Shown in pieces: positions 15,114 through 35,119 of a DNA stretch of 64,000 bases. Numbering within the stretch: position 1 is the first letter of the stretch; each line of letters starts with the position of its first letter. The DNA comes from Limnochordia bacterium (lineage in GTDB: Bacteria; Bacillota; Limnochordia; Darwinibacteriales; DTU012). The stretch spans positions 1 through 64,000 of the forward strand of contig SKJB01000083.1 in NCBI GenBank assembly GCA_007116145.1. The letters are read 5' to 3'. The position numbers and the translations under genes are program-made. The notes below the pieces were generated by a model. It was not told where the DNA came from and searched no databases. It saw only the letters and a program-made list of their open reading frames with translations.

Positions 15114-15593
15114 ATGCTTTTGCCCAATTTAGTCGGGCTATTATCGGTAATTCTACTGGTTGTAATGATGTTCTTTTTCGTACCTAGAGAAGAGGTCCGA
15201 CACTTGCTGCCTTTTGGCCTCACTTTCGGCTTTGGAACTGCAATAATTTTATTACTACTTATGCAAAACATCTACAACTTTTGGCAGTTTATTCAAACAG
15301 ATTTTCTCTATCTCTTTAACATTCCACTGCTCATCTCAGCGGCTTGGATACCCACAGTTATAATTTTTGCCCATTGGGTCAAAAACGAAGTGTCGTTTAT
15401 GAGGCTGTTGGTTACTATTAGCTTGTTTGCAGGCGGCGCAACACTAGTGCATTATTTCCTGATTGCTAATCAGATGCTTGTCTACGAGAACTGGAGCTTA
15501 GTACTCACATTTACGGTATCGTTTATCATTCATGTTGTGATAACTGGTTATCTGTATATGGTAGGTAGAATAACCAAAATTGGGCTCACCTAG
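15114..15593 (+). CDS. Small polytopic membrane protein, possibly CBO0543-like and spore-associated
   Basis: Multiple hydrophobic segments; first gene after the candidate sigma-G promoter. Confidence 0.5.
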   Translation: MLLPNLVGLLSVILLVVMMFFFVPREEVRHLLPFGLTFGFGTAIILLLLMQNIYNFWQFIQTDFLYLFNIPLLISAAWIPTVIIFAHWVKNEVSFMRLLVTISLFAGGATLVHYFLIANQMLVYENWSLVLTFTVSFIIHVVITGYLYMVGRITKIGLT

Positions 15594-15656
15594 ACCACAC
15601 AATGTCTTTAGATAACTTTAGCATTAATGAATAATTCAGCTTTTTGACCAAATACT

Positions 15657-17132
15657 ATGACTATGAAACTATCTAAATCAATCGAAAAAAACCTCGAAAT
15701 ATTCCAGCAGAAAATTTTCCATGATGACGATGTTATCCGATACAGACGATTTACTCTGGGAAATACGCAAATAAAGTGCGGAATAATCTTTATTGATAGT
15801 ATGATCGATAAAGATTATCTTGGCGAGAACGTTATTTCTCCACTAACGCGCTGTAAATCGGAATCTATTCATTTACGCGAGATCTATCCATCCATTGAAA
15901 ATATCATTGCTGTCGAATCCCTAAGGATATCAAAAGGACTAGAGCAGATGATTGAGGGCATCCTCTACGGCGATGCCCTGTTACTCATTGACGGCACCGA
16001 TTTAGGAATGATATTAAGCGTTAAAGGCTGGGAGTACCGCAGCATTAGTGAGCCCACTTCTGAGAGTGTAGTACGGGGATCTCGAGAAGGATTTACCGAG
16101 TCCATCATCATAAACATCTCGCTACTGCGACGTAAAATCCAGGATTCTCGTCTAAAGTTTAAAATGCAGGAACTAGGCAGACGTACAAAAACGAAGATAG
16201 CTATCTGTTATATCGAAGATCTGGTTTCGCCGCAAATCCTGCAGGAAGTCTTTGAACGGATCAACAAGATTGACATAGATGGCATTTTGGAATCTGGTTA
16301 TATTGAGGAACTAATCAAAGATTCTCCATTAAGTCCTTTTAAAACTGTGGGGCATACAGAACGTCCCGATATCTTAGCAGGCAAAATACTAGAAGGACGA
16401 GTAGGAATTCTCTGTGATGGAACTCCTTTTGTATTAACAGTACCCTTCATCTTTATGGAGGGGTTTCAAAGCAATGAAGACTATTACCGCAACTGGGCTT
16501 TAGCTTCTTTGGACCGGATGCTACGCTATGTCGGTTTTTTTATTACAACAAGCACTCCAGCCATTTATCTATCTCTAATCACCTATCACCAGGAAATGAT
16601 TCCGACACCACTGCTCCTAAGCATCTCTGCCGCGAGAGAAGGAATCCCGTTCCCTACCATTTTCGAACTCATTGTGCTTGGATTAGTTTTTGAAATTCTG
16701 CGCGAGGGAGGAGTCCGTCTTCCTTCGCCAATCGGTCAAGCCCTTAGTATCGTCGGTGCTATTGTTTTAGGTGATGCAGCCGTAACTGCAAATTTTGTGA
16801 GCGCTCCTATGATTATTGTCATTGCTCTAACTGGAATCTCAAGCTTTGTGATCCCGCAATTTTTAGGGGTTGTGATTCTTATCCGCTTAGCCTTCGTTTT
16901 GTTTGCGTCCGTACTAGGACTTTACGGCTTTGTTTTTGCAGTCATTGGGCTATTTATTCACCTGATGTCAATTCGCTCTTTTGGTATTCCCTATATGACA
17001 GAGCTATCCTCATATAAACTCGAAGATGTTAAAGATACAGTGATCCGGGCCCCCTGGTGGTGGATGCAACGCCGGCCAAAACTGATCACAAAAAAAAATA
17101 GACCGAAACGCAAAAGGATTGAAGGCAAATGA
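15657..17132 (+). CDS. Spore germination protein GerA-family A subunit
   Basis: EGRVGILCDGTPFVLTVP, SAAREGIPFPTIFE, LREGGVRLPSPIGQALSIVGAIVLGDAAV motifs. Confidence 0.95.
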   Translation: MTMKLSKSIEKNLEIFQQKIFHDDDVIRYRRFTLGNTQIKCGIIFIDSMIDKDYLGENVISPLTRCKSESIHLREIYPSIENIIAVESLRISKGLEQMIEGILYGDALLLIDGTDLGMILSVKGWEYRSISEPTSESVVRGSREGFTESIIINISLLRRKIQDSRLKFKMQELGRRTKTKIAICYIEDLVSPQILQEVFERINKIDIDGILESGYIEELIKDSPLSPFKTVGHTERPDILAGKILEGRVGILCDGTPFVLTVPFIFMEGFQSNEDYYRNWALASLDRMLRYVGFFITTSTPAIYLSLITYHQEMIPTPLLLSISAAREGIPFPTIFELIVLGLVFEILREGGVRLPSPIGQALSIVGAIVLGDAAVTANFVSAPMIIVIALTGISSFVIPQFLGVVILIRLAFVLFASVLGLYGFVFAVIGLFIHLMSIRSFGIPYMTELSSYKLEDVKDTVIRAPWWWMQRRPKLITKKNRPKRKRIEGK

Positions 17133-18268
17133 AGCACTTGATTCTCTTACTCATTGCAGCTCTACTCTTGGCTGGCTGTTGGAATTATCGTGAAATTGAT
17201 AACTTAGCCATTGCGTTGGGGTTAGCCGTTGACAAAGGTGAAGGCGACTCATATATAGTCACAGTTGAAATTATTAACCTCGAGGGAGCTGGGCCAGAGT
17301 CCGAATTTAAACCAACTACTGTCCAAGCACAATCCGATACGATTTTCGGTGCTATTCGCAGGCTCATCACAGTAACTGGCAAAAAACTTTATTGGGCCCA
17401 TGCGAAAGTAGTAATTATCAGCGAAGAAATCGCACGTGAAGGTATCCTACCCATCCTAGACTTTGTGCAGCGCGATGCAGAAATTCGGTCAGATGTGTGG
17501 CTGTTAGTTTCTAAGGAAGAAACGGCTGCTGAAATTTTAGCAAGCACTCCACTCGTTGAATCAAGTATCTCGCAACAACTAAGTCAAATCTTACAACATC
17601 ATGCTCCAGAGCCAAAATCAATTCCTGAAGAATTATGGAATTTCATGCAAAAACTCACAGCTCCAGGTATTGCCCCTGTAATAGCTACAGTTGGACTGGT
17701 AGAGCAAGGCGAAGAGAAGCTTACGCGTATTAAAGGGGTAGCTTTTTTTCGTAGAGATAAAATGGTGGGATGGTTAGATGGAAAGGAGAGCCTAGCTCTG
17801 TCTTACCTACTCAATGAGTCAATCTCAGGACTAATTGTACTACGGTACGAGGAATCGGGTCTTACCGCGCAAATCACTTATGAGGTTGTAGGTAATAAGA
17901 CAGAGTTCCAACCCTTCATTAAAGATGATCAAATAACAATGGGTATCGTAACGAATCTCCAGGTTATTCTCGCAGAGGTAGCCAATCAAAAAGTGGATTT
18001 TAGTCAACCTAGTGTTCGTAGCAAACTAGAGAGCGATTTAGCAGAGCATCTTGAGGAATTGATGAAGCGCACAATTATCAAACTGCAACAATATAACAGT
18101 GATGCGGTAGGATTGGGCAGTGTTTTACGGCGCAGAGACCCAGAAGCGTGGAAACTAGTAGCGGATGATTGGCCTGCAGTTTTTGGCAGCTTGCAAACGG
18201 ATATCCGAGTAAAACCCGTTATTCGCGCAAGTGCCTTGGTCTCAAAACCCATTGAAATGAGGGATTGA
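17129..18268 (+). CDS. Ger(x)C family germination lipoprotein (C subunit)
   Basis: Lipobox LLAGC then WNYREIDNLAIALGLAVDK. Confidence 0.95.
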   Translation: MKHLILLLIAALLLAGCWNYREIDNLAIALGLAVDKGEGDSYIVTVEIINLEGAGPESEFKPTTVQAQSDTIFGAIRRLITVTGKKLYWAHAKVVIISEEIAREGILPILDFVQRDAEIRSDVWLLVSKEETAAEILASTPLVESSISQQLSQILQHHAPEPKSIPEELWNFMQKLTAPGIAPVIATVGLVEQGEEKLTRIKGVAFFRRDKMVGWLDGKESLALSYLLNESISGLIVLRYEESGLTAQITYEVVGNKTEFQPFIKDDQITMGIVTNLQVILAEVANQKVDFSQPSVRSKLESDLAEHLEELMKRTIIKLQQYNSDAVGLGSVLRRRDPEAWKLVADDWPAVFGSLQTDIRVKPVIRASALVSKPIEMRD

Positions 18269-30785: not shown

Positions 30786-31523
30786 TCATAGAAACTCCCC
30801 TAAATCTGTAACTAAGCGTTCAAAGCGATTAATGCTTAGAATTGCCTTAGCCACACCTGGACCATAGCACTGTCTGTCACTTACATCATGTTGGATGGTC
30901 AGGGATTCACCATCGCCCCCAAAAACCACCTCTTGATGGGGCAACACTCCAGATAAGCGTAAACTATGGGTGGATATATCTTTATGTTTAAAGCCTGATA
31001 CTTTTTTCATTTCCTTCACCATTAACTTCGATGTCCCCGATGGACATTCCCTCTTATCAGGATTATAAATATCGACAATCGCTGCTTCGTTGAAGACTTG
31101 AGCTGCTAACCGCGCAGCTTGCAACATTATTAAAGCCCCCAAAGAAAAGTTAGGGATAAGAGCACCGCCTAACCCATGTTTCTCACACAGCCGACTAAAC
31201 GCTTGCATCTCATCAGCACTAAATCCTGTGGACCCGATAATTGGGTGAATTCCCAACAAAACACTGGGAAGAAAATGTTCCTTTGCCACTTCAGGTGGAC
31301 TAAAATCCACCCAAATTGTCGGACTTGTCTTATCCACTGCCTCACGAAAGTTGTCAAGAATTGGTACTTGGCTATCAAAATTTGCTAAAACACAGCGCAT
31401 GTCACTACCTACATACTTACGGCCTAATACTCCTACCACATTCATATCAGCCCGAGACGACAAATAACGAACGACTTCACGACCAGTCTTACCCGTTCCT
31501 CCAGCAACCATTACACGATGCAT
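30786..31523 (-). CDS. dapB: 4-hydroxy-tetrahydrodipicolinate reductase
   Basis: MVAGGTGKTGREV, IIGSTGFS, IPNFSLGALIMLQ, DIYNPDKRECPSGTSK. Confidence 0.88.
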   Translation of the reverse strand: MHRVMVAGGTGKTGREVVRYLSSRADMNVVGVLGRKYVGSDMRCVLANFDSQVPILDNFREAVDKTSPTIWVDFSPPEVAKEHFLPSVLLGIHPIIGSTGFSADEMQAFSRLCEKHGLGGALIPNFSLGALIMLQAARLAAQVFNEAAIVDIYNPDKRECPSGTSKLMVKEMKKVSGFKHKDISTHSLRLSGVLPHQEVVFGGDGESLTIQHDVSDRQCYGPGVAKAILSINRFERLVTDLGEFL

Positions 31524-31634: not shown

Positions 31635-34268
31635 TTATGCGTGTTTACGTTCGTTCACTACAGTCTTTCTACGAGTTTCCACAACACGCTGCCAAATATC
31701 CTCCGATAACGGTAAATCGAAACTACGGAATCCAGCGAGCTTAAATCCGTGAACAGTCGCTAACTTTCGTAATCGATTCAGATGATCCAAATTCAGGTCC
31801 GCACCAATACTAGTATTCTCGTAAAGGTGTTCTAATCCTAGCATCATAGTCTCTGACATACAAGCGTAAGCGGTCCCTACGTCAAAACCAAAATTCCAAC
31901 CTAAGTCTGGCTTTCCTGGCACTTCAATGATACCGCCATCCATCACTAGTACATCACTACGATTCTCTAAAATATCACGATGAACATTAGCTGGACGAGA
32001 CATATCACAAATCAATGCGCCCCATTTTACCATATCGGATGTTATCATAGCATCCGTACTACTTGTTGCTGCGAGGATAATGTCAGCTTTTGGCAACCAA
32101 TGCTTGTGATCAACAGTTAGTGTAATCGGACAGCCATTAGCTAATTGGTCCTTTGCAACATCAATCCATACTGATAGCGGAGAATCTAGCTCAGGAAGAT
32201 TCGCTAAGTTGGCAACATACGAACCGATACTGCCCGCTACAAATGTTTTTCCTAGGCTTAGCTGCTTAGCTAGATACTGAAATATTTCAGCTACTACTTT
32301 AAGCATCCGATATTCACTTTTCTCGGGTCGATCAGGATTACCCACTAAGATAAGCTCCTTAACATCCTCTGACAATAGAATCGCCGAAGCTTTTCCAATA
32401 GCACCACCGGCTCCAACCACTGCTGCTGTAACATCAGCCAGTTCCATACCCAACCGTGTTGCACCGATGGTTAGGGCTTCTACACCAGATAGCACCGTGT
32501 AACTATTTCCAGTGGTCAAAGGAACTTCCACCTGGCTTAATAACGAACGACCACCTGCTGTAACCACGGATGTATAAGCACCGAGTCCCACAATCTTAGC
32601 ACCGCGACTTACTGCTAGCTCAATTGCCGCGGTCATTTCTGATAACACTTTGTCTCTAGGCATGGCCCTCAATTCTTGAGCAGTGCGAGGCACTGCAATG
32701 AAATCGCCAAACGCACTCTTCCCAGCAGGGCTCGAAATCCTCACACTTGCGACTAAGAATGGTTCAACCATATCGCTCCAACGAGCGGACAAATCACCTA
32801 ATTGCTCAATGTCAAATACACGTAAGCTCTCATCAAAATCGGAGTAATTCTTCATATCAATAGGATGAATTAAAAAAGCAAATCGACCTTCATTGGGATC
32901 TTCGACAGACTCAATTACTGGTCGCGGCGCATTCACCCCCGCATTATGATCGGGCACTTCAAAATCAATTAAATGTCCTAAAAATGCTGCTGTATTCCGT
33001 TTGGCTAACATGGCCACCGCACGTTCAATACTAACTAACGCTCGTTCAATCTGCTCCATTGTAGTTATCAATGGTGGTTCAATCCGAATTACGCTTGCTC
33101 CATTTAGCGTTGGAGCTACTCGCAAGCCTTCAACATTTAGCAAGTAGCTGGCGATCATCGGTGTTAATATTTCTTGCTCGGCCATAACGCCCAATAAGCT
33201 TTCAGGATACAAAGAACGGGAATTGCCAAAATCGATCCCTAACATAAACCCTCGTCCGCGAATTGCTTGGATAATCTGCGGGTATCTTTTTTGAATCTCA
33301 AGTAAACCGTTTTTAAGAATGGCGCCTTTATGAGCCACCTCTTGTATTAATCGTCCATCATCACACGTCAATAGATCTAAGACTTTAAGTCCAACACGAC
33401 AGGCTAATGTATTACCACCAAATGTGGACGAGTGCTTCATTCCAAAATCATCTGTATATACATCAGCCGTACACAATACTGCTCCAATGGGTACCAACCC
33501 GCCACCCAAAGCCTTGGCTAATGTCATAATATCAGGCGAAACACCTTCAGCATTACAAGCAAATAAGTGACCGGTTCGACCTAACCCAGTTTGTATCTCA
33601 TCAAATATGAGTAAAACACCATACTCAGCACAGATAGCCTTTGCCTCAGCTAGATAACTTTTTGGTGGTTCGATAATACCACCCTCGCCTTGTATCGGTT
33701 CAATGATAAAAGCGGCTATATCTTGTCCTTGACTGGACAATACTGCACGAAGTTGCGCAATATCACCATAGAGAATATATTGAAACCCAGCTACCGGTGC
33801 ACCAAACACTGTTTGATACCCACTATTCCCAGTTGCTGACAAAGCTCCTAGTGTTTTCCCATGAAAACTATTGTGTGTGGTTAAAATTCCCATCCGACCA
33901 GTCTTTGCTCTTGCGAGCTTAATAGCGGCTTCAACTGCTTCGGCTCCGCTATTAGCAAATGTTACTTGAGTTAATCCTGATGGCGCAACCTCAGCTAGAC
34001 GCTTTCCTAAAGCACCTGCTGCTTCCAATAGTGACGGCTGGGTAAAACTTGGTTCTAAGCTTGCTTGGATATCATTAACTGCTTGCCAAATCTCAGGCGG
34101 ATTAAAGCCAAAAGGTAACGCTCCGTAAGCAGCGATAAAATCCAGATACGATTTACCTTTATGATCATAAAGATAACAGCCTTCTCCTTTTACATATTGC
34201 TTATCTAACCCTATTTCGACTAGGCGTTTACCTAGGTACGGATTAATATTTTCTAGATACGGGTGCAT
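31635..34268 (-). CDS. Class III PLP aminotransferase fused to a C-terminal acyl-ACP-reductase-like (AAR-like) domain
   Basis: N-terminal half: FIIEPIQGEGGI, LLIFDEIQTGLGRTG, LAKALGGG. C-terminal half: GLGAYTSVVTAGG..TTGNSYTV, AAVVGAGGAIGKA, MDGGIIEVPG..YACMSETMMLGLEHLYEN. Start moved to ATG 34268, which has SD GGGAGG. Confidence 0.85.
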   Translation of the reverse strand: MHPYLENINPYLGKRLVEIGLDKQYVKGEGCYLYDHKGKSYLDFIAAYGALPFGFNPPEIWQAVNDIQASLEPSFTQPSLLEAAGALGKRLAEVAPSGLTQVTFANSGAEAVEAAIKLARAKTGRMGILTTHNSFHGKTLGALSATGNSGYQTVFGAPVAGFQYILYGDIAQLRAVLSSQGQDIAAFIIEPIQGEGGIIEPPKSYLAEAKAICAEYGVLLIFDEIQTGLGRTGHLFACNAEGVSPDIMTLAKALGGGLVPIGAVLCTADVYTDDFGMKHSSTFGGNTLACRVGLKVLDLLTCDDGRLIQEVAHKGAILKNGLLEIQKRYPQIIQAIRGRGFMLGIDFGNSRSLYPESLLGVMAEQEILTPMIASYLLNVEGLRVAPTLNGASVIRIEPPLITTMEQIERALVSIERAVAMLAKRNTAAFLGHLIDFEVPDHNAGVNAPRPVIESVEDPNEGRFAFLIHPIDMKNYSDFDESLRVFDIEQLGDLSARWSDMVEPFLVASVRISSPAGKSAFGDFIAVPRTAQELRAMPRDKVLSEMTAAIELAVSRGAKIVGLGAYTSVVTAGGRSLLSQVEVPLTTGNSYTVLSGVEALTIGATRLGMELADVTAAVVGAGGAIGKASAILLSEDVKELILVGNPDRPEKSEYRMLKVVAEIFQYLAKQLSLGKTFVAGSIGSYVANLANLPELDSPLSVWIDVAKDQLANGCPITLTVDHKHWLPKADIILAATSSTDAMITSDMVKWGALICDMSRPANVHRDILENRSDVLVMDGGIIEVPGKPDLGWNFGFDVGTAYACMSETMMLGLEHLYENTSIGADLNLDHLNRLRKLATVHGFKLAGFRSFDLPLSEDIWQRVVETRRKTVVNERKHA

Positions 34269-34315
34269 AGTGAACCTCCCATTCTCGTATGTACACATTT
34301 TTGTGCACAAACATA

Positions 34316-35119
34316 TTATAGCAAGTTTTTACAGAAAACACAATGCCTTAGTTTGGATAGATTGACATATTCGATTGCGATTACCGTCAGAAATCCCATC
34401 CCGATCCAAAAAATATTACGTAAGTTCCAGATATCTATAAGCAGCATGGGTACAGACCCAAGTATCATACCAGCTAACAACGCTAAAGTAACCCTTGGAT
34501 AACGAGTTAATAGAAAGCTCATAACCCAGGCTAATAGGATTAAACCGCCAATAACACCAAGTGCAAAGGGAATAAGAAGTGAGAATTGTAGTTGGACAAC
34601 GGCCTGAAGTGTTAACTCATATAGACCTAATATCACTAAGACTGTTGATCCACTAATTCCAGGTAATAACATGGCTGTACTTGATAAAACTCCAGCTATA
34701 AACATGCCAAGAAAAGGGTTTTTCCCTAAGTCAATAAATGCACTAGTACCAAAAGTAAATGCAGCGACGATCACAAAACCTAGCAAAAACAGGGGACAGA
34801 TAAGTCCCTGGCGACCGGGTCCAATCTTTTTAATCACTACCCAGACAGACGCTAAAATAAGACCGGTTAATACGCTTTGTGTACCCGTGGGATAGGATTC
34901 TAAGATAAAAACAACCCCTCTAGAAGCCAACAAAATACTAAATATTACCCCGAGCCCAAAGGGTAGCAGCTTTTTAATGCACAGCTTCTTTAACGCATCA
35001 ATTAATTCATCATAAAAGCCTAACACCAACATTGTTGTCCCACCACTAATCCCTGGTAATACATTTGCGAAGCCTAGGGGCAAACCACGTAGAAACCATA
35101 GTAGGCACTTTTTTATCAT
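34316..35119 (-). CDS. DUF368 polytopic protein (polyprenyl-phosphate transporter family)
   Basis: GLPLGFANVLPGISGGTTMLVLGFYDEL and LPGISGSTVLVILGLYE motifs. Confidence 0.9.
   Translation of the reverse strand: MIKKCLLWFLRGLPLGFANVLPGISGGTTMLVLGFYDELIDALKKLCIKKLLPFGLGVIFSILLASRGVVFILESYPTGTQSVLTGLILASVWVVIKKIGPGRQGLICPLFLLGFVIVAAFTFGTSAFIDLGKNPFLGMFIAGVLSSTAMLLPGISGSTVLVILGLYELTLQAVVQLQFSLLIPFALGVIGGLILLAWVMSFLLTRYPRVTLALLAGMILGSVPMLLIDIWNLRNIFWIGMGFLTVIAIEYVNLSKLRHCVFCKNLL

Follow-up and report, generated by a model that had tools for sequence, protein, structure and literature searches.

A transaminase–acyl-ACP reductase-type fusion with a conserved catalytic cysteine is near-universal in one order of Limnochordia and seems to have replaced a stand-alone reductase

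The window analysed here, a stretch of 64,000 nucleotides from a Limnochordia bacterium (GenBank assembly GCA_007116145.1, contig SKJB01000083.1, positions 1 to 64,000 of the forward strand), carries an open frame of 877 amino acids without internal stops, P0001 (31635..34268, minus strand), which runs from an ATG at 34268 to a stop at 31635. An in-frame TTG at 34310 is an alternative start and would give 891 amino acids. All window features below lie on the minus strand. Residues 25-418 (33015..34196) form a class III PLP aminotransferase domain (PF00202, E = 2.3e-99), for which the PDB sequence matches were PigE and putrescine aminotransferase and Foldseek led to PigE and YgjG. Its Lys252 (33513..33515) occupies the family position of the PLP Schiff-base lysine and is a lysine in all 40 aligned fusions. 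Residues 462-869 (31662..32885) were recognised by an hmmsearch with a profile of the stand-alone acyl-ACP reductase (AAR) and form an acyl-ACP (thioester) reductase-like domain. The last 439 amino acids matched both the long-chain acyl-ACP reductase model TIGR04058 (E = 8e-23) and the PigE model (E = 2e-42), and by sequence the C-terminal half was related to the crystallised Synechococcus AAR (SeAAR, E = 8e-11) and to PigE (E = 4e-24). Within it lies a VGAGGAIG dinucleotide-binding loop (residues 618-625, 32394..32417), whose Gly619, Gly622 and Gly625 are conserved in essentially all homologues. A marginal match to Pfam Shikimate_DH (25.1 against a cut-off of 24.3), which would have pointed to an unrelated dehydrogenase, was dismissed given the far higher scores of the AAR and PigE models. 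AlphaFold2 gave a confident two-domain model of P0001 (pLDDT 89, pTM 0.84); a Foldseek search with the whole model returned only transaminases among the best 50 matches, and hence says nothing on the reductase half. The first-pass annotation had proposed, partly from remembered motifs, that one frame joins a complete class III aminotransferase to an AAR-like domain of about 440 amino acids. The motifs are real, the profile and sequence matches place the fusion far above chance, and the profile searches of the C-terminal half did not assign it to an unrelated dehydrogenase.

The same annotation had stated that the reductase-like domain lacks the usual catalytic cysteine, which would leave its chemistry open. 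That view placed the nucleophile in VGATGDIGSAVCRWL. In the numbering of the solved SeAAR chain, the cysteine of AVCRWL is residue 172 and that of FACFAEAM is residue 294, and the structure and acyl-enzyme of SeAAR identify Cys294 as the acylated nucleophile (PMC7089970). Cys294 aligns with Cys803 of P0001 (31860..31862) in the motif YACMSET, a position that is cysteine in 42/42 fusions and 58/58 stand-alone proteins; every PigE protein and proteobacterial fusion that was inspected has it too. Independent published work agrees, with conserved cysteines assigned to the Cys294 position in four fusions by Prout et al. (PMC10829540) and C887 as the equivalent residue in PtTamH (PMC9594044). The position of Cys172 is taken in P0001 by Ala629 (32382..32384), and is A, S or T in fusions and A or T in stand-alone homologues. 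Since Cys172 is not the nucleophile and Cys803 is invariant, the premise of a missing cysteine was wrong; the correct motif, YACMSETMM, is in fact quoted in the annotation, which did not identify it as catalytic. With both the GxxGxxG loop and the Cys294 equivalent in place, nothing is missing from the active site, and standard acyl-thioester reduction is to be expected.

The cofactor pocket differs from that of SeAAR, where the phosphate of NADPH is bound by R189, R193 and R314 (PMC7089970). Arg189 is replaced by Asn644 (32337..32339), which is N in 40/41 Bacillota fusions, against R in 55 of 56 stand-alone homologues, and Arg314 is replaced by Ala823 (31800..31802), with A, S, T, V or I in Bacillota fusions and K or R in stand-alone homologues. 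The three pocket positions thus read N, R and A in P0001, the middle one uncertain because its column lies near an insertion in the alignment. The hydride donor is probably NADH, a prediction that rests on these three residues. That the fusions have lost R189 and R314 agrees with PtTamH, whose specificity for NADH has been determined. PigE, though a fusion as well, keeps both arginines.

Directly downstream of the fusion is a divergent DapB paralogue (30786..31523; TIGR00036 above cut-off), a possible operon partner and the second DapB of the genome, which encodes a canonical copy elsewhere. A DapB-like gene adjoins the fusion in 14 sampled loci (duplicates counted), although the association is patchy. 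All 14 of these copies lack both histidines of the DapB motif and keep the lysine, residues that we take to be catalytic. Directly upstream lies an undecaprenyl-phosphate translocase-like (DUF368) gene (34316..35119; PF04018, E = 1.6e-44), which stands beside the fusion in few relatives only. In many relatives from the order, the fusion is followed by a DegT-family aminotransferase and then by DapF and a glycerophosphodiesterase (L017:9713-10984 and similar). Given their patchy association, the DUF368 and DegT neighbours were rejected as pathway partners.

A survey of the distribution, which the first-pass annotation had suggested, found the fusion to be near-universal in the order of the window's genome (34/37 genomes). 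Among 61 related genomes, 57 have an AAR domain: 40 in the fusion, 17 as a stand-alone protein and none in both forms, an exclusion with a Fisher p of 1e-11 if genomes are treated as independent, which they are not. In one of the genomes, G057, the two halves occupy adjacent frames. In class relatives, the stand-alone AAR sits in a conserved gene order of rho, a LysM protein, dusB, an HTH protein (c17, a putative regulator), c1, AAR, greA and lysS. The window's genome and three other fusion-bearing members of the order (G010, G032 and G017) have kept this operon, with c1 directly followed by greA and precisely the AAR gone (rho-LysM-dusB-c17-c1-greA(-lysS); L147, L149, L150 and L152). This is most simply explained by displacement of the stand-alone gene, and in this order the fusion seems to have replaced an older AAR.

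Other arrangements were seen as well. Genome G169 has the regulator, c1 and the fusion in one block, with c1 and the regulator directly upstream of the fusion, while its dusB-lysS region still contains a separate stand-alone AAR (L161:4910-9034; L162:2811-3899). In genome G071 the c1 operon includes a stand-alone AAR, and a fusion that is more distant, at 43% identity, is encoded as well (L160:2642-3757 and 15440-18136). Outside the window's class, therefore, the fusion has not taken over from AAR in every case. A Leisingera plasmid encodes a fusion of 1395 amino acids with about 530 extra C-terminal residues (L141:11980-16167), followed by an MMPL transporter; genes for an adenylate-forming enzyme and for further biosynthetic functions lie nearby. 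Plasmid-borne fusions of Rhodovulum (L143:12025-14613), Haematobacter (L142:11992-14697) and Paraburkholderia phymatum (L144:9001-11568) lie, where annotated, outside pig- or tam-like clusters.

The gene left behind in the operon belongs to c1, a family of about 305 amino acids. In many Bacillota and Armatimonadota it immediately precedes the gene of the stand-alone AAR (for example L030:5969-6895, and L147:1099-2016 on contig C80 of the window's genome; family alignment A2). Across 250 genomes of the phylum, 159 have AAR and c1, 4 AAR only, 28 c1 only and 59 neither, so that c1 accompanies AAR in 159 of the 163 AAR-bearing genomes. Searches with c1 gave no match in Pfam or NCBIfam and no convincing relative among PDB sequences, and a literature search for c1, or for a transaminase–AAR pair in Limnochordia, found nothing. 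Its model is confident (pLDDT 89) and resembles two-Rossmann-domain proteins in Foldseek. As to whether c1 might be an AAR paralogue, AAR is among the best matches (TM 0.50), but other two-domain folds score alike and profile comparison detected no c1–AAR homology. We tentatively consider a widespread, so far undescribed housekeeping route of anaerobic Bacillota, and of Armatimonadota, in which AcpP-bound fatty acids would be turned into a long-chain aldehyde or amine. It would be built on AAR, with c1 as near-constant partner and a linked regulator, and the fused form would have replaced AAR in some lineages. If such a route exists, the transaminase-fused form implies an amine lipid or an amine-modified envelope component. 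The displacement of AAR, together with the constancy of c1 as its partner, suggests that fatty aldehydes or fatty amines have an unstudied function in the primary metabolism of many anaerobes.

The window's genome, which is about 97% complete, encodes a single PP-binding protein, inside a normal fapR-plsX-fabH-fabD-fabG-acpP-fabF cluster (gene names read from translations). With only this carrier there is no assembly-line donor, a dedicated carrier of the tam or pig type is unlikely, and AcpP or CoA must serve. AcpP, the only acyl carrier protein of the cell, is most likely the acyl donor. An aldehyde deformylating oxygenase (ADO) was searched for in the same genome and not found, and the alkane route was rejected on this ground.

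Taken together, we favour, with a probability of about 0.78, the reading of P0001 as a bifunctional thioester reductase and transaminase of the PtTamH and Thermaerobacter-fusion type, a core gene in its order and the successor of an older stand-alone AAR. The acyl group, most likely from AcpP, would be loaded onto Cys803. Hydride transfer from NADH, or less probably NADPH, would release the aldehyde, which the PLP domain would then transaminate through Lys252 to give a primary amine, with L-glutamate as the probable amino donor. This order of reactions, already raised by the first-pass annotation as a possibility, is likely because PtTamH, PigE and the fusions of Thermaerobacter and Thermincola are close analogues.

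Other roles were weighed against this reading. That the AAR-like domain is dead or serves another purpose, as Ala629 in place of SeAAR Cys172 might suggest, is hardly credible and is already contradicted by the alignment, in which the replaced residue is not the nucleophile and the true one is invariant. A more serious alternative, though still an unlikely one, is that the aldehyde is the main product, common to the stand-alone AARs of relatives, and that the transaminase acts as a safety valve or side branch. It would agree with the replacement of a stand-alone AAR by the fusion and with the c1 operon of stand-alone genomes, which has no linked transaminase; stand-alone transaminases with 41-47% identity do occur in those genomes and were considered as the missing partner, but their neighbourhoods show no link. 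On the other hand, the fusions conserve every active-site residue of the transaminase, and fusion itself favours a direct hand-over such as the one suggested for PigE on the model of GluTR-GSAM (PMC8341465).

Those enzymes of this type for which a product is known (PigE, TamH and KecF) all serve the tail of a prodiginine-, tambjamine- or koreenceine-type alkaloid, and Prout et al. reported prodiginine-type antiSMASH clusters in the thermophile genomes (PMC10829540). We nevertheless regard a secondary-metabolite role of P0001 as improbable. The only PP-binding domain lies in the fab operon, which leaves no PKS/NRPS or TamA-like ACP, the neighbours are housekeeping genes and the fusion is present almost throughout the order. 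Furthermore, the window's genome was found to hold no dedicated ACP/ANL and pathway cluster of the tambjamine or prodiginine type, and the improbability of a dedicated carrier there argues against a prodiginine-type role in the order. Slightly less probable again is a keto- or amino-acyl thioester substrate whose amine product would cyclise to an imine, to be reduced by the neighbouring DapB-like protein to a ring amine. The spontaneous cyclisation of the PigE product (PMC8341465) and the 14 directly downstream DapB copies without motif histidines speak for it, but many orthologous loci, some of them in the same family, lack the DapB neighbour.

The nearest named records for P0001 are Limnochordia metagenome bins. 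The bifunctional reading places it beside a set of known enzymes. Judged by sequence, it is a further member of the characterised transaminase–AAR fusion family of the PtTamH and Tmar_2123 type and, with the catalytic cysteine present, an ordinary-looking one. The first-pass annotation had allowed that the fusion might be an already characterised enzyme; this largely holds for the fusion type as such. P0001 scored below the curated cut-off of the cyanobacterial AAR equivalog model TIGR04058 (81 bits against 449.7) and, in the comparison with the tambjamine and prodiginine enzymes TamH and PigE, below that of NF053554 (530 against 850). In a quick tree, a branch with SH-aLRT 97 separated the fused AAR domains, those of Bacillota, proteobacteria and PigE, from stand-alone AARs, consistent with a common descent of the fused domains; some rows were long and the tool gave a warning about long-branch joining, which makes the exact placement of PigE uncertain.

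Cyanobacterial AAR (TIGR04058; PDB 6JZU) shares the reductase fold, cysteine nucleophile and dinucleotide loop with P0001, but stands alone, has an NADPH-specific arginine pocket and is paired with ADO. YgjG (PDB 4UOX), the nearest solved transaminase after PigE, has no reductase domain and acts on diamines, unlike P0001. PigE, from prodigiosin synthesis (PMC8341465, PDB 4PPM), shares both domains, with a homologous reductase and Cys296, but has them in reverse order and belongs to a pigment cluster. PtTamH of Pseudoalteromonas tunicata has the arrangement of P0001, with an N-terminal class III transaminase and a C-terminal AAR-type reductase with GxxGxxG and the catalytic cysteine; with TamA, NADH and L-Glu it converts C12 acid or C12-ACP to the C12 amine in vitro, refuses acyl-CoA and needs the dedicated TamA ACP (PMC9594044). 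PtTamH lies in the tam cluster with this ANL-ACP, whereas no TamA-like partner was seen for P0001, a core gene with AcpP alone available. Tmar_2123, ThesuDRAFT_00745 and Tfer_2018 of Thermaerobacter and Thermincola are Bacillota fusions of the same architecture in which Cys294 likewise corresponds to a conserved cysteine. According to the available part of Prout et al., their transaminase activity was shown on aliphatic aldehydes with Glu, Ala or Gln and their reductase step was inferred rather than measured (PMC10829540). They come from thermophiles, and that part of the report makes no mention of a core-gene distribution, AAR displacement or c1. What is novel about P0001 is its genomic context. 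Fusions of this type have been described chiefly from clusters for pigments and alkaloids, whereas here the fusion is a near-universal core gene in one order, in a genome without such clusters, and seems to have displaced the stand-alone AAR.
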